Shown here piece after piece: positions 21,317-31,315 of a DNA stretch of 64,000 nucleotides. The notes under the pieces were generated by a model. The model had not been told where the DNA came from and did not search any database. It was given only the letters and a program-made list of their open reading frames with translations. The number at the start of each line of letters is the position of its first letter. Position 1 is the stretch's first letter. The DNA is from Bacillota bacterium (GTDB lineage: Bacteria; Bacillota_I; Bacilli_A; RF39; UBA660). The DNA is taken from positions 1 through 64,000 of the forward strand of contig JAETPN010000005.1 of assembly GCA_021771185.1 (NCBI GenBank), given 5' to 3'. Made by a program: the position numbers and the translations under genes.

Positions 21317-21345
21317 AAAGGTAAATTGTAAATAATTTACCTTTT
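21316..21345. terminator. Bidirectional intrinsic terminator
   Basis: AAAAGGTAAATT (21316-21327) and AATTTACCTTTT (21334-21345), serving two convergent genes; it overlaps the last codons of the minus-strand gene. Confidence 0.8.
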
Positions 21346-23139
21346 AAAATTCCCAAAAATACTAATATCCACATTACCTTGAATACCATGTACTTGCCCC
21401 GTTGATGTATATTGCCACCCTTCATAAAATCCTGTCCATGTACAGATAGAATTGTATTGAGCAATCCAAGTAATTTCTTTGGTTAGATTTTCTGAATATA
21501 ATTTTTCATTCGCAAGACTTTTATAAGTATAGACATTTGTTTTGTAATTTGAAGTTCTTACTCTTTGTAAAAAAATAGGAATAATCATTTCATAATCTAA
21601 GATACTTAAATGATTGGTAATATCATTTCGTTCAATATCATAATAAATTCCTAAAGTAGGGGTTATTTGATATTTTTCTAACATCGATAATACAAAGTTT
21701 GCTTCACTTTCTGCTTCTTGTTTGTTTACAGCATAACTATATAAATAAATACCATAGGGGATACCTAAACGTTTTAATTCTTGTAGATTTCGCTCAAACA
21801 TTGTATCTACACTATAACTTCCAAATCCTAAGCGCAAAATAACACCATCTACGTCACTTTGTTTTACTTGATCCCAATCAATGATTCCTTGAAATTTAGA
21901 TACATCAATCACTTTTTTCGCATTAGTTGCTAGAATACTTCCGTCTTCTTTATAAAAAGTTTTACCAATTTGTTCTTCTTTTATGACATGACCTTCCTGA
22001 TTAAATTGATATTTTTTCTGTTCAGTGATTAATTCAGTGGTGTTCATTTTCCCATCTGGGTTAAAATATTTTTTTTGATTATTAATTGTTTGCCATCCCA
22101 CTTGCATCATCCCTTGTTCATTAAAATAGTAAGTATCTTGTTCAATCTTTACTAGACCAGTTTTTAAGGTTTGATTGGTATCTAAATAATAGGTATGATG
22201 ATTTTCCTTAATGAACCCCGTCTCACTTTGTCCTTGTTCATTAAAGTAATAGGTTTTATCTTCTAGGGTAATAAAACCATGAACCATTTTTCCTTCTGAA
22301 TCAAAATAATAAAGAGCGTTGTCTATTTCTTTTAAACCTGTTTCACGGATTCCATCACTATTAAAATAATAAGTATCATTTTCAATGGTTTGAATGCCTT
22401 TAAAAAGTGTCGTATCACTTAAATAGTAAATATTATTTTGATCTTGAATCCATCCTGTTTCACGCCATCCGTGCTCATTAAAATAATAAACCTGATTTTC
22501 TATTTCTTTAAAACCAGTAATCATTGTACCATCTTGATCAAAGTAATATTCATGGTCATCAATTTTTTGAAAAGAGGTAAGTCGTCCTTTTTCTGGATCT
22601 ACATAATACATTACCTCATTTATTTTTAAGAATCCTGTTTGTTTGCCATTTTCAGAAAAATAAAAAATTTTATTATCGATCGGAATAAAACCTAACGTTA
22701 ATTTTCCTTGATCATTAAAGTAATATTCTTTTTTATCAAGAGTTATAAGTCCACGTGCCATATATCCCTGATCATTAAAATAATAGGTATCTTCACCAAT
22801 TGTTGTCCATCCGTGCGCTAATCCTTTCTTATCAAATAAGTAATAAGTATTTCCTTCGAATGTAATAAACCCTGTATGTGGAACACCTAATTCATCGAAG
22901 AAATAAATAGATTGATTAATGGAATAAAATCCTGGTTTCATTGAAATAGATGTGATAGATCCTTTTTTATTTACGCTAGGTTGTGTAGCGAAATGTTGCT
23001 TGATATTTGTCTCTTCCTTTGCCTCCTTTCTTTTTTGTGCTGCCTTAACTTTTTGTGTTGTTTCATTTTTTGTACTCATAAACCCAGTACTTAGTAGGCA
23101 TATGGTTGAAACAACAAGTAACATATTTGTCTTTTTCAT
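21337..23139 (-). CDS. GH25 muramidase with about 16 cell-wall-binding repeats
   Basis: 600 residues. A signal peptide (MKKTNMLLVVSTICLLSTGF) is followed by a Lys/Glu-rich linker. Some 16 repeats of roughly 20 residues (TYYFNEQGxxxTGxxxI pattern) of the choline/glucan-binding CW type fill residues 70-390. The catalytic GH25 domain is C-terminal (from about 408): VIDVSKFQG, LRLGFGS and YYDIE, the last carrying the Asp/Glu active-site pair. It cleaves the MurNAc-GlcNAc bond of peptidoglycan. The domain order (repeats first, lysozyme last) suggests a secreted autolysin. The repeats lack the full aromatic set of true choline-binding modules, so the ligand is unclear. No phage genes are nearby. 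Confidence 0.88.
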   Translation of the reverse strand: MKKTNMLLVVSTICLLSTGFMSTKNETTQKVKAAQKRKEAKEETNIKQHFATQPSVNKKGSITSISMKPGFYSINQSIYFFDELGVPHTGFITFEGNTYYLFDKKGLAHGWTTIGEDTYYFNDQGYMARGLITLDKKEYYFNDQGKLTLGFIPIDNKIFYFSENGKQTGFLKINEVMYYVDPEKGRLTSFQKIDDHEYYFDQDGTMITGFKEIENQVYYFNEHGWRETGWIQDQNNIYYLSDTTLFKGIQTIENDTYYFNSDGIRETGLKEIDNALYYFDSEGKMVHGFITLEDKTYYFNEQGQSETGFIKENHHTYYLDTNQTLKTGLVKIEQDTYYFNEQGMMQVGWQTINNQKKYFNPDGKMNTTELITEQKKYQFNQEGHVIKEEQIGKTFYKEDGSILATNAKKVIDVSKFQGIIDWDQVKQSDVDGVILRLGFGSYSVDTMFERNLQELKRLGIPYGIYLYSYAVNKQEAESEANFVLSMLEKYQITPTLGIYYDIERNDITNHLSILDYEMIIPIFLQRVRTSNYKTNVYTYKSLANEKLYSENLTKEITWIAQYNSICTWTGFYEGWQYTSTGQVHGIQGNVDISIFGNFKR

Positions 23140-23284
23140 ATATCCCTCCTGACATCGTCATTATATAAGGGACAAAGAGACTTTGTAAAGGAAATTAACT
23201 AAAGTTATCTAAACTTATCTAGGGGATAACAAAAAGGGGCTAAAAAACAAACTTTTTAATCATTTAGTTCATCTAAGTAAACAA

Positions 23285-23313
23285 AAAAACTCAATGAGAG
23301 ATATTGAGTTTTT
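23285..23313 (-). terminator. Intrinsic terminator of sleC
   Basis: AAAAACTCAAT (23285-23295) and ATTGAGTTTTT (23303-23313); on the minus strand the hairpin overlaps the stop codon and ends in a T-run. Confidence 0.75.
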
Positions 23314-24532
23314 ATTCAAAAATACCTTTTAACATGTTAGAAACAGCAACAAAGATTGCCGATATTCGGTACCAAGTCGCAAAGTTGACAATTCCGGTAA
23401 CAGGTAGGTTAAAAACACTTTGAAATTTTCTAACAGAGGCTTCGGTATCTGCATCAAAAATACCATTCGTGTTTTTGATCAAGGGAAGGGCAGGGTAGCT
23501 TTCTCTAATTTTATTCAAAGCATTTTGCAGTAATTGTACTTCTTCACCACAAGCGCCAACACTTAAATTATAGCCCGGAAATGAAGTTGGTAAACCAGGA
23601 ACAAGTTCAGCTTCTGCAAGTCCAATAGTATTCCCGTAATAGTATCTGACAATCTGTAATGAATTATAACCTTGATCTCCTAATGTTTTTGATCCCCACT
23701 GACTTAACCATCCTTTTCTTACAACATTAATACCATCACTATATTGAGCAAAGAAGGGAAAATTACGATTAGGAAATTTTAAATATTCTGTAAATATTTC
23801 ATCTACAACATTGGAAATTGTATCAAAGATGGTTCGATTGTGTGTATATTTTTGATCATAAGCCGTCGATGATGTAATCGTAAAATTATATCCTTTGGAG
23901 AAATACCATTCTGTAAAAACACGATTTAAAGTAAAAGATACAATCGCATGAACATTGGCTTTTAATGTTTCGCGTGGCCATGTTGGGTAAATCTCAGAAG
24001 AGGCGACATTTTTAACGTAATCAGAAAATGATACATAATAATTAGGTGCATTCGTATCGGTTGGAATTCCATCATGAACAATGATGTATTCTGGAATAAT
24101 AACTCGTGGCAAAACTTTTTCATCCGTAGTTAATGCGAGTGGATTTTCTTGAATCTTTGGAGGATTACTTTGCCAAATTGCGGGTGGTGTAACAACAGTT
24201 ACATTTTTTCCAGAGTCTCCAGGAATGGTACTTAGGAAAACATCTTGAAAAGAAGTAATCCCATCATAAATTTGAACTCCCAAAATAGAGGCACTTCCTA
24301 AACCTTCTTTTGACACATAAATATTATAATTACTAAATGGTAGTACAGTATTTTGTGGTTCTAGGGTATACTCTATATCTGGGGCATTCAACTCAATGAC
24401 ATTTGTTTTTCCAGATTCGTCTGTGATTAAGTTAATATTTGTATTTTCACCGCTGATATTAACGAGTGCTCCTTCTAAGGGAAGTGCAACATTATCAACA
24501 AATACACTAATGACTAAACGTCCAACTGCCAT
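23312..24532 (-). CDS. sleC: Spore-cortex-lytic enzyme, SleC type
   Basis: 406 residues. It resembles clostridial SleC along its whole length: an N-terminal beta-sandwich pro-region (GRLVISVFVDNVALPLEGA), the ITVHxGxP-like element (IIVHDGIPTDTNAPNYYVSF), the SpoIID-related core YVKNVASSEIYPTWPRETLK, then ISVSFTLNR-type and YNFTITSSTAYDQKYTHNR segments, and LSQWGSKTLGDQG. A C-terminal peptidoglycan-binding domain (about 330-395, GEEVQLLQNALNKI) follows. SleC degrades spore cortex during germination after proteolytic activation by Csp proteases, which are not in this window. Made in the mother cell, as the promoter in front suggests. Start ATG at 24532 has GAAAGGA upstream. Confidence 0.88.
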   Translation of the reverse strand: MAVGRLVISVFVDNVALPLEGALVNISGENTNINLITDESGKTNVIELNAPDIEYTLEPQNTVLPFSNYNIYVSKEGLGSASILGVQIYDGITSFQDVFLSTIPGDSGKNVTVVTPPAIWQSNPPKIQENPLALTTDEKVLPRVIIPEYIIVHDGIPTDTNAPNYYVSFSDYVKNVASSEIYPTWPRETLKANVHAIVSFTLNRVFTEWYFSKGYNFTITSSTAYDQKYTHNRTIFDTISNVVDEIFTEYLKFPNRNFPFFAQYSDGINVVRKGWLSQWGSKTLGDQGYNSLQIVRYYYGNTIGLAEAELVPGLPTSFPGYNLSVGACGEEVQLLQNALNKIRESYPALPLIKNTNGIFDADTEASVRKFQSVFNLPVTGIVNFATWYRISAIFVAVSNMLKGIFE

Positions 24533-24557
24533 AAAACCAAATCCTTTCTATCACCAC

Positions 24558-24588
24558 TACTATATGCTTGTGATCTCTTATTTATCAA
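24558..24588 (-). promoter_or_regulatory. Predicted sigma-E/K (mother-cell) promoter of sleC
   Basis: On the minus strand: TTGATA (24588-24583), a 16-base spacer, and CATATAGTA (24566-24558). The latter matches the CATANNNTA -10 of mother-cell sigma factors, and ATA at -35 fits sigma-E. Known consensus, position inferred. Confidence 0.55.
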
Positions 24589-24642
24589 TTTAGATGAACC
24601 ATTTACCCAAGAATTAATATAATGACAGTAGTGGAGGGGTTT

Positions 24643-25632
24643 ATGAATACAAATGAGTTATTAAATGAAACTGAATTAAATCCTACAATTCAAATGGGCG
24701 ATACGGGAAGTGCGGTTATTATTTTACAAAGTAAATTAAAAGATTTGGGATATTATTTTGCTAGCATCACAGGAAGTTTTGATAATTATACAAAAAATGC
24801 TGTTATTCAATTTCAACAAGATCATCAGTTAACACCAAGTGGTGTGGTGGATCAAGAAACGTGGAATGTATTAAATAGCTTAACTGCTTCACCAGAAATC
24901 ATCGCAGAAATAAATACGAGACCCGTGCTTAGATTAGGTAGTACTGGGCCCTATGTAACAGAGGTCCAAACAGTTTTAACATCTTTGCTTTATTATACGG
25001 GACAGATTGATGGTAATTTTGGTACTAGCACACAAAATGCGGTAAAAAGATTTCAAACGAATAATCGATTAACACCTGATGGAATCGTTGGAAGAGATAC
25101 ATGGAGTGCACTTTCTACTTTATATGAACCACTTGCTGACTGTAATGGAGAAACGCCAGATGATCATATCGTTTATACAGTGGTTGCAGGGGATTCTTTA
25201 TGGGCTTTAGCAAGAAGGTTTAATACAACGGTAGATGCGATTAAACGATTAAATAATTTAACGAGTGATACGATCTTTGTTGGTCAAAAACTTTTAATTC
25301 CAAGAACAAATGGAAATGAGCCAACACCAGATTACATCATTTATACAGTGGTTGCTGGAGACTCTTTATGGGCTTTAGCTAGAAGATTTAATACAACGGT
25401 AGATGCGATTAAAAGTTTAAATAATTTAACAAGTAATAATTTAAGTATTGGCCAACAATTAAAAATTCCTACAGGGAACCAACCGAATATTACTTATATT
25501 GTTGTAGCAGGAGATACTTTATGGGCTTTAGCTAGAAGATTTAATACAACCGTAGATGCGATTAAACGATTAAATAATTTAACGAGTGATAATTTGAGTA
25601 TTGGTCAACAGTTACTAATTCCAAGGACATAA
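24643..25632 (+). CDS. Peptidoglycan-binding protein: two PG_binding_1 domains and three LysM domains
   Basis: 329 residues from ATG 24643 (GGAGGGG upstream; an ATG at 24622 overlaps the TATAAT box at 24618-24623). Domain order: two PG_binding_1 modules (about 10-75 and 90-155, GDTGSAVIILQSKLKDLGYY and GSTGPYVTEVQTVLTSLLYY), then three LysM modules (VVAGDSLWALARRFNTTVDA repeated). There is no signal peptide and no catalytic domain. Secretion without a signal peptide is common for spore-coat or cortex-associated LysM proteins, and the gene is head-to-head with sleC, so a spore-envelope role is plausible. A cytosolic or otherwise exported wall protein is the alternative. Confidence 0.85.
   Translation: MNTNELLNETELNPTIQMGDTGSAVIILQSKLKDLGYYFASITGSFDNYTKNAVIQFQQDHQLTPSGVVDQETWNVLNSLTASPEIIAEINTRPVLRLGSTGPYVTEVQTVLTSLLYYTGQIDGNFGTSTQNAVKRFQTNNRLTPDGIVGRDTWSALSTLYEPLADCNGETPDDHIVYTVVAGDSLWALARRFNTTVDAIKRLNNLTSDTIFVGQKLLIPRTNGNEPTPDYIIYTVVAGDSLWALARRFNTTVDAIKSLNNLTSNNLSIGQQLKIPTGNQPNITYIVVAGDTLWALARRFNTTVDAIKRLNNLTSDNLSIGQQLLIPRT
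25171..25630 (+). repeat. Three near-identical LysM-coding tandem repeats
   Basis: Units start near 25171, 25340 and 25493. Blocks such as TGGGCTTTAGC and ACGGTAGATGCGATTAAA recur with only a few silent changes, indicating recent duplication or gene conversion and a locus able to gain or lose modules. Confidence 0.85.
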
Positions 25633-25635
25633 AAT

Positions 25636-25663
25636 AAAACTACTTTTTTATAAAAGTAGTTTT
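25636..25663 (+). terminator. Intrinsic terminator
   Basis: AAAACTACTTTT (25636-25647) and AAAAGTAGTTTT (25652-25663). Confidence 0.75.
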
Positions 25664-25693
25664 TAAGTGTTAGAAAGACTATTTCATTTAAAA

Positions 25694-26383
25694 TTAAATA
25701 TGAAAAAAATTATCAATACCAATCACACCATCATAATAATTATTCATAATTTCAATACATAATTTCATCTTATCGTTGTTAATTATTCCATTGTCTTTAT
25801 AATCAGTTACAATTTGATTAAATAAATTATCATAATAGAATGTTATGGAACCATATTTGGATTGAATTAAAATATCTATTAAATCATTAATTTTATTTTT
25901 TATCTCATCTTCTAGGTTAGATAATAGATAATCATTTATATTTACTTTTTCTCCATCTATTTCCATTTCATTACCAAGAATTTCTGATAATTTTTTTTGC
26001 AATGGCAATTTTTCATTTTTAATATCATTAATTAAATAATTTTTGTATTGTAATGTTTTTTCAACGGTATATTTTGATAGTTCTTGTTGTTTATTTTCTA
26101 CATTTTTAGGGATTACATCACCAATAACAAAGTCTTTATCACTTGTTTTGTTGAATTCTACAATCGTATCATTATTTATATCTATTAAAGCCCAATATTC
26201 AGATTTTATTTGTTCTTCTTTGCTCCAAACATTATCATTTTCTTCTGTTATCATTACTCCAATATACAATTTTCCATTTTCTATTCTTAGCATAGGGTAT
26301 AGTGGAATATAAGTTTCTAAACCTCTTTTTACTTTTTCATCATTGACAATATTTAAATATTTGTCTAAATTTAAGTTATTCAT
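25694..26383 (-). CDS. Hypothetical protein co-transcribed with an ECF sigma factor
   Basis: 229 residues, soluble, Asn/Lys/Ile-rich, with no membrane segment and no zinc-binding HxxxCxxC, so it is not a standard membrane anti-sigma factor. The N-terminal half looks beta-rich (PLYPMLRIENGKLYIGVMITEE, SEYWALIDINNDTIVEFNK), resembling an immunity/response-type domain; the C-terminal half is helical. It overlaps the sigma gene by eight bases, so the two are co-translated. It could be the sigma factor's partner or target; I cannot tell which. Confidence 0.55.
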   Translation of the reverse strand: MNNLNLDKYLNIVNDEKVKRGLETYIPLYPMLRIENGKLYIGVMITEENDNVWSKEEQIKSEYWALIDINNDTIVEFNKTSDKDFVIGDVIPKNVENKQQELSKYTVEKTLQYKNYLINDIKNEKLPLQKKLSEILGNEMEIDGEKVNINDYLLSNLEDEIKNKINDLIDILIQSKYGSITFYYDNLFNQIVTDYKDNGIINNDKMKLCIEIMNNYYDGVIGIDNFFHI

Positions 26384-26849
26384 AATATCTCTCCTTTATC
26401 TTATTTCTAGCACGATATAAATAAAATTTTATATTTGCTTCTTTTGTATTTAAATTCTTGCTGATATCTTTGATTGAAAGGTCTTTAAGATAGTACATTT
26501 GAAATGAAACTTTTTCATTTTTTGTTAAACCTATATTATCAAGATTATCTATAATTTCTCTATATATTATTTTATCTATCATATTTGGTTCATATCCCAT
26601 TTGATATTCTTCATCAAACGTAATGTTGGTTTTCTCTTTAATATATTTTTTTGCTTTGGTGCACCATAAATTATAAGCAATTTTCCATATTAAATTTTCC
26701 AACTTTTCGGGTTTAATATTTTTATTTAAATATTCAAAGATGGATAAGAAAACATTATTTGTAAGATCTTCTGCATCTTCTTTATTATTTGTTTTCTTAA
26801 TAGCCCAATGATATATTTTATAATAATATTCATCATAGATTCTATCCAT
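26376..26849 (-). CDS. ECF-type RNA polymerase sigma factor
   Basis: 157 residues with both essential regions: region 2 (DEYYYKIYHWAIKKTNNKEDAEDLTNNVFLSIFEYL, with the DAEDLTQ-like -10 recognition helix) and region 4 (LTKNEKVSFQMYYLKDLSIKDISKNLNTKEANIKFYLYRARNKI, a helix-turn-helix). GGTGA lies before the ATG at 26849. It is followed by an overlapping gene without anti-sigma features. As group 4 sigma factors usually control their own operon, the 240-base gap upstream probably holds an autoregulated promoter. Confidence 0.82.
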   Translation of the reverse strand: MDRIYDEYYYKIYHWAIKKTNNKEDAEDLTNNVFLSIFEYLNKNIKPEKLENLIWKIAYNLWCTKAKKYIKEKTNITFDEEYQMGYEPNMIDKIIYREIIDNLDNIGLTKNEKVSFQMYYLKDLSIKDISKNLNTKEANIKFYLYRARNKIKERYYE

Positions 26850-27066
26850 AAATAATCACCTTTCACCCATATAGTATAAAAAAAATCATTTTGGTTAGAA
26901 ATTTTTAAAAATTTCTTTTTTTTATGTAAATCTTTATAATACTCTTATATACAATATATCATATTTTCTCTAAATTTTTAATCTTTTAAGTGTAGAGAGA
27001 TAAGAGTAAAAGAAACCTTAGTGGTTTAAAACAATATAGTATTCTAATCGTTTATCAGATACTAAA

Positions 27067-27087
27067 AAAATCACTAAATGTGATTTT
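27067..27087 (-). terminator. Intrinsic terminator of the AAA ATPase gene
   Basis: AAAATCAC (27067-27074) and GTGATTTT (27080-27087), with a T-run on the minus strand. A further imperfect stem (AGTAT...ATACT, about 27038-27063) lies just beyond. Confidence 0.6.
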
Positions 27088-27089
27088 AA

Positions 27090-27944
27090 TTAAAATTCAT
27101 CTTTGTGATTATTAAAGAAGTCATAATAAATTCTGACGTTTTTAAGTTCCGTCCATTTTTTAGATTTTACAGGAACCTCATCTAAATCATAAATTTTAGC
27201 GTCTCTTAAGCCTAATAGAAAAGGGGAGTGGGTAGATATAATAAACTGGCAATTATAAAATCTTGCGGATTCTTCTATAAATTGTGCTAGTTTAACTTGA
27301 TTTTCTGCGGACAAACTATTTTCTGGTTCATCTAATAAATATATAGAATTATCTTTAATTTCGTTTTCCCAAAATTCTAAAGCGGATTCCCCATTAGACT
27401 GTTCAATGATATTATTGTTACCTAATCTAGTTCTGATATATTTTGATACTGTCATTTGTTTAGCGTCCACTTCATTTTTTAATTCCTCGTAAGCGAATAA
27501 ATTAGTGGTTCCCTCATTATATTTATTATTATAATATTCCTTTTCTAAAGCAGCCTTTCTTCTATTTACTTGATTATTGATTGCGCGTAAATCTAGGAGA
27601 TAATCAAAGACATCATCGCTAGAGATCATCTTTATTTCTCGGAGATTTATTTCGTCTATATCATAAGAATCGATTTTATCAACATATATATCAAACAATT
27701 CACCCTTTTTATCAATGTTCTTTTTTGTTGCTTTTAATTTTGCGCCTACTATGTTAAGTAAAGTTGTTTTTCCTGAACCATTCCCACCGTAAAAAATAGT
27801 TATAGGTTCAAATTTTATATGTCTAAATTCTTTAGTAGGAAATATTTTAAGAGGGTAGAGGGTGTTAAATATACGTTTCTTTTCACATATCATTTCATAT
27901 TCTACCTCATCACTTAATAATTGAAAAGATTTTAAATATACCAT
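27090..27944 (-). CDS. AAA-family (ABC/SMC-like) ATPase
   Basis: 284 residues from ATG 27944, placed right after AAAGGAGAAG; an ATG 15 bases further upstream overlaps that site. Walker A is GGNGSGKTTLLN, a signature-like SNGESALEFW follows, Walker B is IYLLDEPENSLS, and the switch His is in IISTHSPFLLG. This is the compact RecF/OLD-like AAA_15/AAA_21 type, not a transporter. Such stand-alone ATPases are common in defence islands and mobile regions; there is no adjacent nuclease, so a defence role is unproven. A D-loop-proximal ENSLS is typical of the family. Confidence 0.8.
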   Translation of the reverse strand: MVYLKSFQLLSDEVEYEMICEKKRIFNTLYPLKIFPTKEFRHIKFEPITIFYGGNGSGKTTLLNIVGAKLKATKKNIDKKGELFDIYVDKIDSYDIDEINLREIKMISSDDVFDYLLDLRAINNQVNRRKAALEKEYYNNKYNEGTTNLFAYEELKNEVDAKQMTVSKYIRTRLGNNNIIEQSNGESALEFWENEIKDNSIYLLDEPENSLSAENQVKLAQFIEESARFYNCQFIISTHSPFLLGLRDAKIYDLDEVPVKSKKWTELKNVRIYYDFFNNHKDEF

Positions 27945-28133
27945 AACTTCTCCTTTCATAAATATAACTTTAATTTGTCTATAAATATTTTATCATAAAC
28001 TTTTGTATAATAAAACACTAATGTTTATAGTAAGCGTTTAATTTTATTAATAGATTAAGATTTAATGAACTTTTATAAGCTAATTGATTTATTTATATTC
28101 GTATAATATAATAATGATTGAAGGGAGAGAATC

Positions 28134-28406
28134 ATGGAAATATTTGATGGATTAGAGATAATTTTAACAATCATATATGAATTTCTATATGATAAAGCTT
28201 TCAATAGAAACAAAAAATTAGTTCATAGATTGTTTTATATAATATTATATGTAGGAACCTTAAGCTCAATTATTTGTGGTTTAATTTATTTAAGTATTAT
28301 TTTAATTAATGATAAAAATATTTTATTTGGCTCCATTTTACTAGGAATATCTATTTTATGTATTATGATGTTAATATATCCATTTTTTGAAAAGAAAGAA
28401 AAATAA
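28134..28406 (+). CDS. Small membrane protein with two hydrophobic segments
   Basis: 90 residues: a mixed N-terminus (MEIFDGLEIILTIIYEFLYD), then two membrane segments (about 33-54 and 62-83), and a basic-acidic end FFEKKEK. GGGAGAG lies before the ATG and a plausible promoter (TTGATT ... TATAAT near 28087-28111) precedes it. No family recognised. It sits in the accessory patch between the ATPase and an ABC-exporter remnant. Confidence 0.5.
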   Translation: MEIFDGLEIILTIIYEFLYDKAFNRNKKLVHRLFYIILYVGTLSSIICGLIYLSIILINDKNILFGSILLGISILCIMMLIYPFFEKKEK

Positions 28407-28427
28407 TTCTGACTAAATTGTTGATTT

Positions 28428-28590
28428 TTATAACTTTTTATATGTTTCATTATTTTTAATAAGATCATTATGAGTGCTTTGTCCAATAATTTTTCCCTTA
28501 TCTACTTGATACAGTCTCAATAATAGATTAAATATAGTTGTTTTACCACTTCCAGTTTTTTCAACTATAGTAGTTATTTGTACTTTTTTA
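28428..28590 (-). pseudogene. Remnant of an ABC exporter ATPase with an internal deletion
   Basis: Reading the minus strand down to TAA at 28430-28428 gives VQITTIVEKTGSGKTTIFNL then LLLRLYQVDKGKI and, directly, IGQSTHNDLIKNNETYKKL. The first part is the Walker A region of a multidrug/peptide exporter (KVTTIVGKTGSGKTT type, with Gly changed to Glu). The second is the extreme C-terminus (IGQGTHEELL type). Everything between, including the signature and Walker B, and all membrane segments are missing, and there is no start codon. It is a clear fossil left by a large internal deletion. Confidence 0.75.
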
Positions 28591-28677
28591 TTGTTATAAA
28601 TTGTAACAATATAATAAACAACAATTATTTTTTATTTAAAAAGATGATATAATCTTGTATGAAAGGAGTTGCATCAT

Positions 28678-29445
28678 ATGATTACTAAAATTAAATTTAG
28701 AGAAATGACATTGAGAGAAAACATAGACATTATTAAATGGGCTTATTATGAAGGAAATGGTGTATTAAGTGTTCATAATTATACCATTCAATATTTTCCT
28801 GAATTAGCTAATTTTGATAATAATGCTTCAAAAGAAGAAGTTATGAAAAAAATAGAAGAAGTTGTTACAAAAAAATATAAACAATATAGAAATAGAATTA
28901 AAAGTGAAACAAAAAGATATAACGAGATATGGAATCAATATAATGACAAATATTTTTCATTATTGTCTAATTATCTAGGAATAGATTTTTCCGATGTTGA
29001 AATTGTTGATGGTTCGGTTGGTTTAATACCTGTTTTTCCAAGAAATTTAGATAAATTTTCGTTTTCAGTTAGTACTGGCTTGGATGACTGGTTTTTAATT
29101 AGAGTATCTGCCCATGAAACTTTACATTTTATGTGGTTTGAAAAATGGAAACAAATTCATCCGGAAATTTCAAGGCGAGAATATGATTCTCCGTATATAT
29201 CATGGCAATATAGCGAAATGGTAACAGATCCAATATTAAACAATAAACCGTTTTCTGAAATGTTTGGGGATATATTTGTTGAACGTGGATATGATAGTTT
29301 TTATGAACTATATGACGGAGATCATTTAGTTATGGATAAATTAAGAAATCTCTATAGTGAAAATATTTCTGTTGAGGATAAAATAAACAAAGGGTTTGAA
29401 TATATAAATAATATTTTATCACAAGAAAGTAGTAAAAATATTTGA
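28678..29445 (+). CDS. Putative zinc metallopeptidase-like protein (HExxH)
   Basis: 255 residues from ATG 28678, nine bases after AAGGAG; a TATAAT box lies at 28648-28653. The motif SAHETLHFMWFE gives H146-E-T-L-H150, a zincin core, and Glu180 in YSEMVTDPIL is a candidate third ligand. There is no signal peptide or membrane segment, so it would act in the cytosol. Length and context differ from known peptidase families that I recall. The active-site reading is good; substrate and function are unknown. Confidence 0.6.
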   Translation: MITKIKFREMTLRENIDIIKWAYYEGNGVLSVHNYTIQYFPELANFDNNASKEEVMKKIEEVVTKKYKQYRNRIKSETKRYNEIWNQYNDKYFSLLSNYLGIDFSDVEIVDGSVGLIPVFPRNLDKFSFSVSTGLDDWFLIRVSAHETLHFMWFEKWKQIHPEISRREYDSPYISWQYSEMVTDPILNNKPFSEMFGDIFVERGYDSFYELYDGDHLVMDKLRNLYSENISVEDKINKGFEYINNILSQESSKNI

Positions 29446-29492
29446 TCTTAGATCTTTTGAGACAAGGATCAAAATTGTATGTTTAAAAAAAG

Positions 29493-29515
29493 CAGTCTTC
29501 TTTTAGACTGTTTTT
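29493..29515 (+). terminator. Intrinsic terminator
   Basis: CAGTCT (29493-29498) and AGACTG (29505-29510) with TTTTT; it ends the zincin transcript. Confidence 0.7.
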
Positions 29516-29606
29516 GTCAAGTTTAAATTTTATGGTGGCTTGTAAAATAGTTCTTTGCTAAAATTTATTATGTTAAATGATTAGTTGACTAATTTTTCTT
29601 TGATGT

Positions 29607-29637
29607 GGTTGTTGTCGATATCTACAACCTTTTTTTT
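29607..29637 (+). terminator. Orphan terminator-like hairpin
   Basis: GGTTGT (29607-29612) and ACAACC (29624-29629) with an eight-base T-run. No plus-strand gene ends here, so it may be a backup terminator or what is left of a lost gene. Confidence 0.45.
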
Positions 29638-29671
29638 ACTAAAGACCATTAAATAATTATTTCTAATCTAC

Positions 29672-30314
29672 TTAATTTATAACATCAACATCTATTATCT
29701 TGTTAGTATCATCATAAACAATTTTATAGACACCAGGGCTTTTTGGTTTAGAATCTATAATCAATTTTCCATTATATTTTGCGAAAGTATTTTTTTCATC
29801 AAATTCATAATCACATATATTAGCTAAAAAGGATAATAACATAATACCATGAATAACTACTATCATTTTTTCATTAGTTTGATTTAACAATTCATGAATA
29901 AAGTTATTAAATCTTAAATCCATTTCGTTTAAAGATTCACCATCAAAAATTTTATAGTTTTTATCATCAAAAGATCTCTTTGTAAAATCTTTTGGAAGTT
30001 GATTTAAATATTCACATCCAAAATTTCTTTCATTTATTCTATCATCTAATCTAATTTTAGTATGATTATTTTCTGCTAAATACTTTGCGGTTGCAATCGC
30101 TCTAAATGAATTACTTGAATATATGATATCAATATTTTTTAATTCTTCAATTTCACATAATTTTTCTGCTTTTCTTTCACCTTCAACAGATAAAATCATA
30201 TTTTTGTTATATTCTTCCCATTTAACATTTTCATAATCTTCATAATTTTTAATATTTACAAAAGGATTAGAATGTCTAATTAAATAAATAAATCGTGTTC
30301 AATATATCATCCAT
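29672..30314 (-). pseudogene. Histidine phosphatase family protein, out of frame at the N-terminus through an extra AAAT unit
   Basis: The main frame (stop at 29672) reads as a phosphoglycerate-mutase-type phosphatase: IYLIRHSNPF (the RHG-like catalytic His motif), IDIIYSSNSFRAIATAKYLAE, DDRINERNFG, DGESLNEMDLRF and VVIHGIMLLSFL (second catalytic His). No start codon precedes the RHS motif in frame. The natural ATG (30314-30312) reads MDDILNT and then runs into a stop. Removing one four-base unit of the (AAAT)3 run at 30282-30293 restores MDDILNTIYLIRHS. As sequenced, the longest product would start at an internal ATG (30199) and lack the catalytic N-terminus. Confidence 0.75.
30282..30293. 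repeat. AAAT tetranucleotide repeat (three units) in the phosphatase start region
   Basis: Three perfect AAAT units within the first codons of the phosphatase gene; with two units the reading frame is intact, with three it is broken. Confidence 0.85.
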
Positions 30315-30412
30315 TTTCTTTCTCTATTATTATAACATAGATTTATATGATATATCTATTGTAAATAAATGAAAAAAATATATAATGATTATAGAAAGGG
30401 TAGGAATAGGCG

Positions 30413-30763
30413 ATGTCAAAAAATAAAAAAATAGATTTTGAAAAAGTAGTTCGAAATGTTTTAATTGTTTTAACAGCGATTAGTTTAATTATCTTAATGT
30501 TAAATTTTTCATATTTGATTTATCAACATTTAAATATTGAAAAAATTAATAATTTTTTATTAAAATATGTGAATGGAATCGTTCTTTGGAGTAATACCAT
30601 ATTATTATATATCTGTGCAATTGTATATATAATTATGGGTATCAAGTCAAAAAAAGAAGTTGCATTAAAAGTTTCTTTCAGTGTTTTTTCAATTCTAACA
30701 AATATACTAACAATTACTATGATCATTAATCAAATAGCCACATGGTTTGGAATGTTTGACTAA
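30413..30763 (+). CDS. Small membrane protein with three hydrophobic segments
   Basis: 116 residues: a Lys-rich start (MSKNKKIDFEKVVRNVL), then membrane segments at about 17-37, 55-75 and 85-108. AGGAATAGG lies upstream of the ATG. No motif or family recognised. It is flanked by a good terminator and stands alone between the broken phosphatase and the putative toxin locus. Confidence 0.5.
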   Translation: MSKNKKIDFEKVVRNVLIVLTAISLIILMLNFSYLIYQHLNIEKINNFLLKYVNGIVLWSNTILLYICAIVYIIMGIKSKKEVALKVSFSVFSILTNILTITMIINQIATWFGMFD

Positions 30764-30796
30764 AAAAATGAATTTTATCTTTCAAATTCATTTTTT
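30763..30796 (+). terminator. Intrinsic terminator
   Basis: AAAAAATGAATTT (30763-30775) and AAATTCATTTTTT (30784-30796). Confidence 0.75.
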
Positions 30797-30864
30797 CTTT
30801 TTGATTCTTTATTGTAGTAATAAATAAGTGTATTTATTAAATTAATGAAAATTAGTATAAGTTA

Positions 30865-30893
30865 TTGTGTCACAAACATTTGTTTTGTATAAT
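30865..30893 (+). promoter_or_regulatory. Promoter of the 30-residue peptide gene
   Basis: -35 TTGTGT (30865-30870), 17-base spacer, -10 TATAAT (30888-30893). The transcript would start near 30900, giving a leader of about 57 bases in which TCCTT (30923-30927) can pair with the AAGGA of the ribosome site (30943-30947). Confidence 0.6.
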
Positions 30894-30956
30894 TGATTTA
30901 GGAACATTTGATGTGAGTGTCGTCCTTCGATCTTAAGAAAGAAAGGAGGGATAAAA

Positions 30957-31049
30957 ATGAAGAAAAGAACTTTTATTGTAAAATTCCTTCGATACATTGC
31001 TATCATTTTATTACTCCTTACCTTATTGGTAATAGCAATAAAAAAATGA
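30957..31049 (+). CDS. 30-residue hydrophobic peptide, candidate type I toxin
   Basis: The frame begins MKKRTFIVKFLRY and ends LVIAIKK: a basic N-terminus, one membrane span of about 16 residues rich in Leu/Ile, and a basic end. A very strong ribosome site (AAAGGAGGG, 30942-30950) lies seven bases before the ATG. It has a promoter, a leader that can mask the ribosome site, and its own terminator (31090-31135). A minus-strand RNA is predicted to overlap its 3' half. Size, charge pattern, masked ribosome site and convergent antisense together match type I toxins such as TxpA, BsrG or Fst in layout, though the peptide does not match any that I recall in sequence. A plain small membrane protein is the alternative. 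Confidence 0.6.
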   Translation: MKKRTFIVKFLRYIAIILLLLTLLVIAIKK

Positions 31050-31152
31050 CACTTAATTCTATGAATTAAATGTCCACTTAATGAAATTTGGGTAGACATT
31101 CAACTAGCAAAACTGAATGTTCCCTTTTTTCTTTTATGCAAGGTTCCTTGCC
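31040..31152 (-). ncRNA. Predicted antisense RNA overlapping the 3' end of the small-peptide transcript
   Basis: A minus-strand promoter (31187-31159) would start an RNA near 31152. A hairpin GACATTTAATTC / GAATTAAGTGTC (31074-31063 and 31059-31048, with one G-U pair) followed by seven T residues on the minus strand would end it near 31040. The RNA of about 112 bases would have a 5' stem GGCAAGG/CCTTGC and a central CATTCA/TGAATG stem, complementary to the last codons and the whole 3' trailer of the peptide mRNA. On the plus strand the terminator stem has a C-A mismatch and no T-run, so it is directional. Predicted from sequence only. Confidence 0.5.
31090..31135 (+). terminator. Terminator of the small-peptide mRNA
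   Basis: ACATTCA (31096-31102) and TGAATGT (31114-31120), an outer GGG/CCC pairing, then TTTTTTCTTTT. Confidence 0.6.
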
Positions 31153-31158
31153 ATATTC

Positions 31159-31187
31159 ATCATAACATAAAAACGACTTTTTGACAA
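31159..31187 (-). promoter_or_regulatory. Promoter of the predicted antisense RNA
   Basis: On the minus strand: TTGTCA (31187-31182), 17-base spacer, TATGAT (31164-31159). It overlaps the terminator of the upstream tRNA-Leu transcript. Confidence 0.5.
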
Positions 31188-31195
31188 GCCGTTTT
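31169..31195 (-). terminator. Terminator downstream of tRNA-Leu
   Basis: On the minus strand AAAACGGCTT / AAGTCGTTTT with one G-U pair, a 6-base loop and five T residues. Confidence 0.55.
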
Positions 31196-31230
31196 ACTTA
31201 TACTCGAAAACTTCGAGTTATCATTCAATC

Positions 31231-31315
31231 TGGTGCGGGTGAAGGGACTCGAACCCCCATGCCGTAAAGCGCTAGATCCTAAGTCTAGTGCGTCTACCAA
31301 TTTCGCCACACCCGC
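31231..31315 (-). tRNA. tRNA-Leu (anticodon TAG)
   Basis: 85 bases including an encoded CCA. Acceptor stem GCGGGTG / CACCCGC with discriminator A, D-arm with GGTAGAC, anticodon stem CTAGA/TCTAG with loop CTTAGGA, a long class II variable arm, and GGTTCGAGTCC T-arm. The long variable arm and TAG anticodon identify it as leucine. Confidence 0.93.

Follow-up and report, generated by a model that had tools for sequence, protein, structure and literature searches.

The locus at 30865-31187 of the window (the whole 64,000-nt stretch of DNA that was analysed, contig C30 of a 1.24-Mb genome) is very probably a chromosomal type I toxin-antitoxin module. It would belong to a large uncharacterised family that appears to be SOS-inducible in many copies and to have a switch-like toxin mRNA. 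The evidence consists of the anatomy of the locus, its conservation, coding constraint on the peptide, covariation in the mRNA, enrichment of an operator in the toxin promoters and one-sided decay of copies. An earlier sequence-only reading had proposed a probable new type I pair here. This is still the best reading, as the peptide, the ribosome site (SD), the minus-strand promoter and the terminators are conserved in hundreds of copies.

The features of the locus are collected in Table 1. Direct reading of the DNA bore out the plus-strand promoter, SD, 30-residue ORF, TCCTT and terminator that had been described, as well as the minus-strand promoter and seven-T terminator that predict an antisense RNA of ~112 nt. 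This predicted RNA spans the last codons of the ORF together with the 3′ trailer of the toxin mRNA. An alignment of 71 full-length relatives shows the elements conserved column by column, and their conservation was also seen in 277 profile matches and in whole-genome model searches. In the alignments the -10 of the toxin promoter, P1, is more than 90% conserved, and the family keeps both ends of the toxin mRNA (AGGAACAT..GTTCCC-T-run). Thus, the locus contains what is expected of a type I toxin gene, a small hydrophobic peptide with its own SD and promoter, kept by sequence conservation and coding constraint. It also contains a predicted antisense RNA whose own promoter and terminator are conserved.

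Table 1. Features of the locus and its surroundings, in window coordinates.
Feature	Position	Strand	Details
Toxin promoter P1	30865-30893	+	-35 TTGTGT 30865-30870, 17-nt spacer, -10 TATAAT 30888-30893
LexA/SOS-box-like operator in P1 spacer	30873-30886	+	CAAACATTTGTTTT; degenerate in window copy
Predicted toxin mRNA, ~231 nt	30900-31130	+	from promoter and terminator positions
mRNA leader arms	30901-30921	+	GGAACATT 30901-30908 and TGAGTGTC 30914-30921; covariation
Anti-SD and SD	30923-30949	+	TCCTT 30923-30927 and AGGAGG 30944-30949; complementary; local hairpin masks ribosome site
Toxin-like peptide gene, 30 aa	30957-31049	+	MKKRTFIVKFLRYIAIILLLLTLLVIAIKK; ATG 30957, stop TGA 31047-31049
mRNA 3′ region	31091-31130	+	GGTAGACATTCAAC...TGAATGTTCCC-T6; terminator hairpin, or 3′ arm of long-range interaction
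mRNA terminator	hairpin 31096-31120, T-run 31125-31130	+	read from sequence
Predicted antitoxin antisense RNA, ~112 nt	31041-31152	-	start ~31152; 5′ stem-loop GCAAGGAACCTTGC 31151-31138
Antisense-RNA terminator hairpin	31048-31074	-	GACACTTAATTC-TAT-GAATTAAATGTC (plus-strand letters); T7 at 31046-31040, minus strand
Antitoxin promoter P2	31159-31187	-	-35 TTGTCA 31187-31182, 17-nt spacer, -10 TATGAT 31164-31159
Terminator-like hairpin of upstream tRNA-Leu	31171-31194	-	P2 -35 within its loop and stem
tRNA 3′ trailer module	31202-31235	not assigned	ACTCGAAAACTTCGAGT-TATCATTCAATCTGGTG; repeats at other tRNA 3′ ends
tRNA-Leu(tag)	31231-31315	-	co-directional with antitoxin RNA; tRNA-Met upstream

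An intact hydrophobic frame of 24-37 aa was found in 67 of 72 diverse representatives, nearly all with an SD upstream; the other five are truncated or broken. The main peptide types are that of the window copy (MKKRTFIVKFLRYIAIILLLLTLLVIAIKK, C-terminus IKK), MNKKDFLILSLVIIIFLLLFLLFIVLI, MKKKDLLISFLIIIIILLIVSLMILCIKK, MTKREFSLFTIILLLFLVVIILLLK and MRKQEKYLCTIIILLIIVILIILIKIVPTV. Among 32 genes of the first type, differences fall at codon positions in the order 3>1>2 and pN/pS is 0.60, a moderate coding constraint on the peptide. The earlier reading named no matching peptide, and the protein and RNA family libraries agree: Pfam, NCBIfam, PADLOC, PHROGs and Rfam gave no match to the peptide or the RNA, 30-aa queries having little power in such searches. 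No such system was found in the open-access papers and family libraries searched.

A 390-bp region matches dozens of genomes of the same taxonomic family, with several copies in each and an identity of typically 75-85% across 200-300 bp; in the rest of the class, matches were at noise level. A covariance model of the antisense RNA and P2 was positive in 212 of the 291 genomes of this family and in 116 of its 150 genera. In a class-wide sample, 37 of the 38 positive genomes fall within the family. The sole copy outside it (L281, in G458 of another family) lies at a contig edge beside an HTH gene and encodes a related peptide; this copy reflects either transfer or contamination. Most named records in which the P2 region is conserved belong to uncultured Bacilli and Tenericutes, others to Candidatus Ventrenecus and Candidatus Onthousia; they come largely from animal guts and suggest an RF39-type lineage. 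The viral, phage and plasmid collections that we searched gave no match, and an origin from a phage, plasmid or viral contig was rejected on this ground.

Copy number is high, with a maximum of 16 matches in one genome of a 27-genome sample. The genome of the window holds two more copies on contig C36, one of them without its 5′ half. At L065/L122 (G016:C23), L196 and L176 the pair stands in three or four tandem copies whose peptides or leader/tail sequences differ; these possibly have separate specificities.

In the toxin mRNA, leader and 3′ tail form an inverted repeat. The two leader arms, GGAACATT and TGAGTGTC, are complementary to the tail sequences AATGTTCC (31116-31123) and GACATTCA (31095-31102), and the leader is also complementary to the stop-codon sequence GACACTTA (31048-31055). 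We scanned every column pair in an alignment of 72 mRNAs without a prior model. The top helices were leader with stop-codon region, leader with 3′ arm, and 5′ end with 3′ end; the 3′ hairpin was within the first five. In counts of sequences, which are not independent events, the long-range fold shows 161 double-changed cells (shuffles 52 ± 7, slid controls 11-28; 90% of cells paired) and the alternative fold 164 (shuffles 47 ± 6, slid controls 9-21; 93% paired). The two folds are mutually exclusive because the same leader bases are used in both. The best reading of this covariation and of the folding described below is that the toxin mRNA would be switch-like.

When the mRNAs were folded singly, pairing of the 5′ end with the 3′ tail had a median probability of 0.97 and the SD an unpaired probability of 0.18. 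The corresponding SD value for the window copy is 0.22, in agreement with the earlier claim that its leader can mask the ribosome site. We considered whether 3′ trimming might free the SD. No such effect appeared in folding: the SD stayed masked in silico, with an unpaired probability near 0.2, at every 3′ truncation. The inverted-repeat relation of leader and tail means that the antitoxin contains a same-sense version of the leader sequence. Computed for 61 mRNAs, antitoxin binding raised the median cost of opening the SD from 9.4 to 11.9 kcal/mol, but in the window copy it lowered this cost from 10.8 to 9.7 kcal/mol. Thus, tighter masking of the SD by the antitoxin holds on average and fails for the window copy, and we do not take it to be a general rule.

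The toxin promoters suggest a link to the SOS response. The pattern [AG]AACnnnnGTT[TC] occurs at one position of the P1 spacer in 19 of the 72 representatives (shuffles 0.2). Of 13 family genomes sampled, 12 have a lexA gene, in each case with one or two such boxes upstream of it. We built a weight matrix from these lexA promoters of relatives and called a box at a score of ≥10. Among 146 unique toxin promoters, 46 have a box by this criterion (shuffles 0.1), and in nearly all of them it starts 15 nt ahead of the -10. The family toxin appears to be SOS-inducible in many copies, about one-third of them having a LexA box. In the genome of the window, the exact pattern CGAACN4GTTYG occurs at only four sites. 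Two precede lexA, and a third (L310, G000:C17:72572-72585) lies ~100 nt upstream of a nucleotide-kinase-like gene that resembles thymidylate kinase. The fourth is the perfect box CGAACGTTTGTTTG in the toxin promoter of a C36 paralogue.

The box of the window copy has two mismatches to CGAACN4GTTYG and a matrix score of 13.6, compared with 15.3 for the lowest training box and 21.3 for the C36 paralogue. One-mismatch sites in this genome do not exceed those of a reversed control pattern, so weak LexA sites are meaningless alone, and the window box by itself is not significant (2 sites in the window vs 5.5 by chance). What points to CAAACATTTGTTTT, a weak site, as a putative LexA operator is its position and its family. 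Relatives' P1 promoters contain another operator-like motif, TTGTTCG[AC]TTGTTTT, around the -35 (for example in L202, L039 and L036). The form GTTCG[ACT]TTG was found near the -35 in 30 of the 146 P1 promoters and never co-occurs with a LexA box.

A neighbouring tRNA gene recurs systematically on the antitoxin side of the family's copies. A tRNA or tmRNA gene lies within 190 nt on the P2 side in 95 of 225 unique copies with enough flank, the adjoining genes being Leu, Met, Arg, Thr, Lys, tmRNA and eight others; only one tRNA was found on the opposite side among the 225 copies. In all 95 tRNA-adjacent copies the tRNA is transcribed towards the element, co-directionally with the antitoxin RNA, and the distances cluster at 68-70 nt. 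Copies with no adjoining tRNA are the majority, and P2 is conserved there too. The hairpin that holds the P2 -35 has a median of -10.7 kcal/mol in tRNA-adjacent copies vs -4.2 in the others (p 7e-10).

The 3′ end of tRNA-Leu has a trailer module, ACTCGAA..TTCGAGT-N6-TYAATCTGGTG (31202-31235; L102-L109). Several different tRNAs of this genome, and a tmRNA-like gene, end in the same module. It is present at tRNAs both with and without the toxin-antitoxin pair. On contig C36, two more modules are followed by degenerate tRNA-like 3′ ends, and the arrangement there is suggestive of a recombination (att) site of a tRNA-targeting cassette. Against such a reading, the module also follows a gene with a glmS-like C-terminus with no island between, and the window has no second copy of it. 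The genome has integrase genes, one of them at ~12 kb of the window; none adjoins the locus.

In G006, which has the same tRNA-Leu/tRNA-Met/cysK/cysS order, 0.8 kb separates tRNA-Leu from a gene homologous to that at 20.8-21.3 kb of the window. The corresponding distance here is 9.9 kb, so we regard 21.3-31.2 kb as variable, the pair lying at the end next to the tRNA. The tRNA link of the family may reflect integration, recombination or a coupling of antitoxin supply. The region (21317-31230) encodes a choline-binding lysozyme, SpoIID-like and LysM proteins, a sigma factor, an AAA ATPase and a phosphatase. Within the LysM-repeat gene, 25166-25629 consists of three tandem 143-nt repeats with 80-83% identity.

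Toxicity is suggested by the way in which copies decay. Separate models of the toxin side (R2) and the antitoxin side (R1) were run on 27 genomes. They gave 76 pairs, 42 sites with the antitoxin side only (40 of them away from a contig start) and 18 with the toxin side only, counts to be read with a 3′ model more sensitive than the 5′ model and contig ends partly known. An earlier count on fetched loci, 35 antitoxin-only sites vs 4, was biased towards P2 by the way in which loci were fetched. None of seven antitoxin-only sites that we read has an intact toxin: the start and leader are missing, or there is an early stop. Eight of the 18 toxin-side-only sites lie at contig edges. Five of the ten interior ones, all in one genome (L339, L340, L342, L343 and L345 of G008), are complete diverged systems that the antitoxin model missed, with an GGAGCACTCATAAGTTGGGCGTTACC leader still matching the 3′ tail; the antisense RNA of this subfamily is without the usual 5′ stem-loop. 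One further interior site is probably also a diverged system. In L338, which belongs to the same diverged type, the frame is intact and a P2-like promoter is present, but the antitoxin region is shortened. The antitoxin region of L334 has an insertion, and its toxin promoter and SD are degraded; the toxins of L335 and L341 are broken. We therefore rejected the view that toxin-side-only matches are orphan toxins, as most of those in contig interiors proved to be complete systems that have diverged, or toxins that are broken. The count on fetched loci included one intact toxin gene without P2, L027, in a genome that has other antitoxin copies. One-sided decay would be the trace left by an addictive pair. 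It is indirect evidence, and the best here, for toxicity.

From these observations we infer transcription, RNA binding, toxicity and SOS induction, and propose a model. P1 would give rise to a ~231-nt mRNA for a 30-aa single-helix membrane peptide. Its leader may mask the ribosome site locally and pair with the mRNA 3′ tail, closing the message, and the closed mRNA would form an inert pool. P2, converging from just downstream of tRNA-Leu, would produce the ~112-nt antisense RNA, complementary along its full length to the last part of the ORF and to the 3′ trailer. As leader and tail are inverted repeats, the antisense RNA contains the leader sequence; thus, leader and antitoxin would compete for the same 3′ tail. 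We propose that binding of the antitoxin creates a duplex for RNase III and leaves the displaced leader free to mask the SD. Since many toxin promoters have a LexA operator, DNA damage would lift the toxin mRNA above the constitutive antitoxin, a step we propose as for tisB/istR-1.

Part of this evidence would also fit a non-toxic small membrane peptide, such as a stress peptide, whose mRNA is under a cis-antisense RNA; the locus would then be a regulated gene and not an addiction module. Many copies do have an SOS-type operator, and some type I peptides may be mild membrane effectors. However, relics with the antitoxin alone are common, against only one intact orphan toxin, and a core regulator would not usually be multi-copy, tandem and patchily distributed. 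We consider this explanation unlikely. Leader/3′ tail inverted repeats, multiple copies and the frequency of tRNA 3′ ends as neighbours could also suggest a MITE-like mobile repeat, with parasitic inverted repeats and promoters and an incidental ORF. Yet the inverted repeats are located at the predicted transcript ends inside conserved promoters and not at element ends, the SD and the coding constraint are maintained, the compensatory changes fit RNA pairing and the LexA operator has a fixed promoter position, which makes a mobile repeat highly improbable.

There is also a variant of the toxin-antitoxin reading, in which the antitoxin comes mainly from read-through of the tRNA promoter, the pair monitors tRNA transcription and P2 is secondary. 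The shared direction of all 95 tRNA-adjacent copies and the 68-70 nt spacing of most would fit this, but a strong terminator-like hairpin stands between tRNA and antisense RNA in these copies and P2 is kept in the majority, which lack a tRNA. We find the variant distinctly improbable. A broader form of the type I reading is tentative, and we doubt it more than we believe it: a type I class wired to two housekeeping signals, with the toxin tied to SOS via LexA and the antitoxin to tRNA genes via fixed, co-directional terminator placement, with a leader that mimics and competes with the antitoxin, and spread among tRNA 3′ ends as the addiction unit of variable islands.

Read as a type I toxin-antitoxin module, the locus would add a large type I family, present in about three-quarters of the genomes of a gut-bacterial family known mostly from metagenomes. 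Its copies are natural mutants in bulk, and the covarying folds make the switch model directly testable, while the paralogues permit tests of specificity. From the LexA boxes, type I toxins induced by the SOS response are to be expected in a Gram-positive lineage. The fixed place beside tRNA and tmRNA genes raises a testable question: why would antitoxin genes lie at tRNA terminators?

A type I toxin-antitoxin pair is in itself of a known kind. The sequence-only reading had likened the layout to TxpA/RatA and BsrG/SR4 of Bacillus subtilis. The likeness stands for the convergent genes, the antisense overlap at the 3′ end of the toxin mRNA and the masked SD; it does not extend to homology, as none to TxpA or BsrG was found in the family libraries. 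In BsrG/SR4, binding of SR4 extends the masking of the SD (PMC6562991), and PMC6563280 reports BsrG as temperature-dependent. Unlike these two systems, our family has a leader that is an inverted repeat of the 3′ tail, a LexA-type operator and a link to tRNA genes. Fst/RNAII (par, Enterococcus) and Fst-like chromosomal loci are likewise convergent, with a ~33-aa single-helix membrane toxin; their two RNAs each have direct repeats (DRa/DRb) at the 5′ end and share a single bidirectional terminator (PMC8167048). Our family resembles Fst in its convergent pair and small single-helix membrane peptide. In contrast to Fst, it has inverted repeats through which the antitoxin mimics the leader, a terminator for each RNA and a peptide without an acidic tail. 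Fst family models gave no match, and the peptide ends IKK instead of in the charged Fst-type C-terminal tail.

In hok/Sok and aapA/IsoA the region covered by the antisense RNA is the 5′ part of the mRNA, whereas in our family it is the 3′ part. The toxin mRNAs of these systems form a 5′-3′ long-distance interaction and alternative metastable helices (PMC6733600); folding and covariation suggest that such an interaction also exists in our family. In E. coli, tisB/istR-1, dinQ/agrB and symE/symR combine SOS-controlled toxin transcription with an RNA antitoxin, TisB having 29 aa and DinQ 27 aa, according to sections of PMC8309996 and PMC6563280, and those sections contain no mention of a LexA-controlled Gram-positive type I pair. 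As in these SOS systems, the toxin promoter contains a LexA operator in 46 of 146 copies of our family and in the C36 paralogue, that of the window copy being degenerate; unlike them, our family has unrelated sequence and a convergent layout. The Clostridioides difficile pairs (CD0977.1-RCd11 and others) are described in PMC7699646 and PMC6563280 as overlapping convergently, encoding toxins of 34-47 aa, occurring in multiple copies and, among those studied, often being prophage-linked and SigB-controlled; our family shares the convergent overlap, the small toxin-like peptide and the multiple copies, but gave no match in the viral, phage and plasmid collections that we searched. What is new lies in the combination: the family itself, an antitoxin-mimicking leader, LexA control in a Gram-positive lineage and a fixed placement at tRNA genes.
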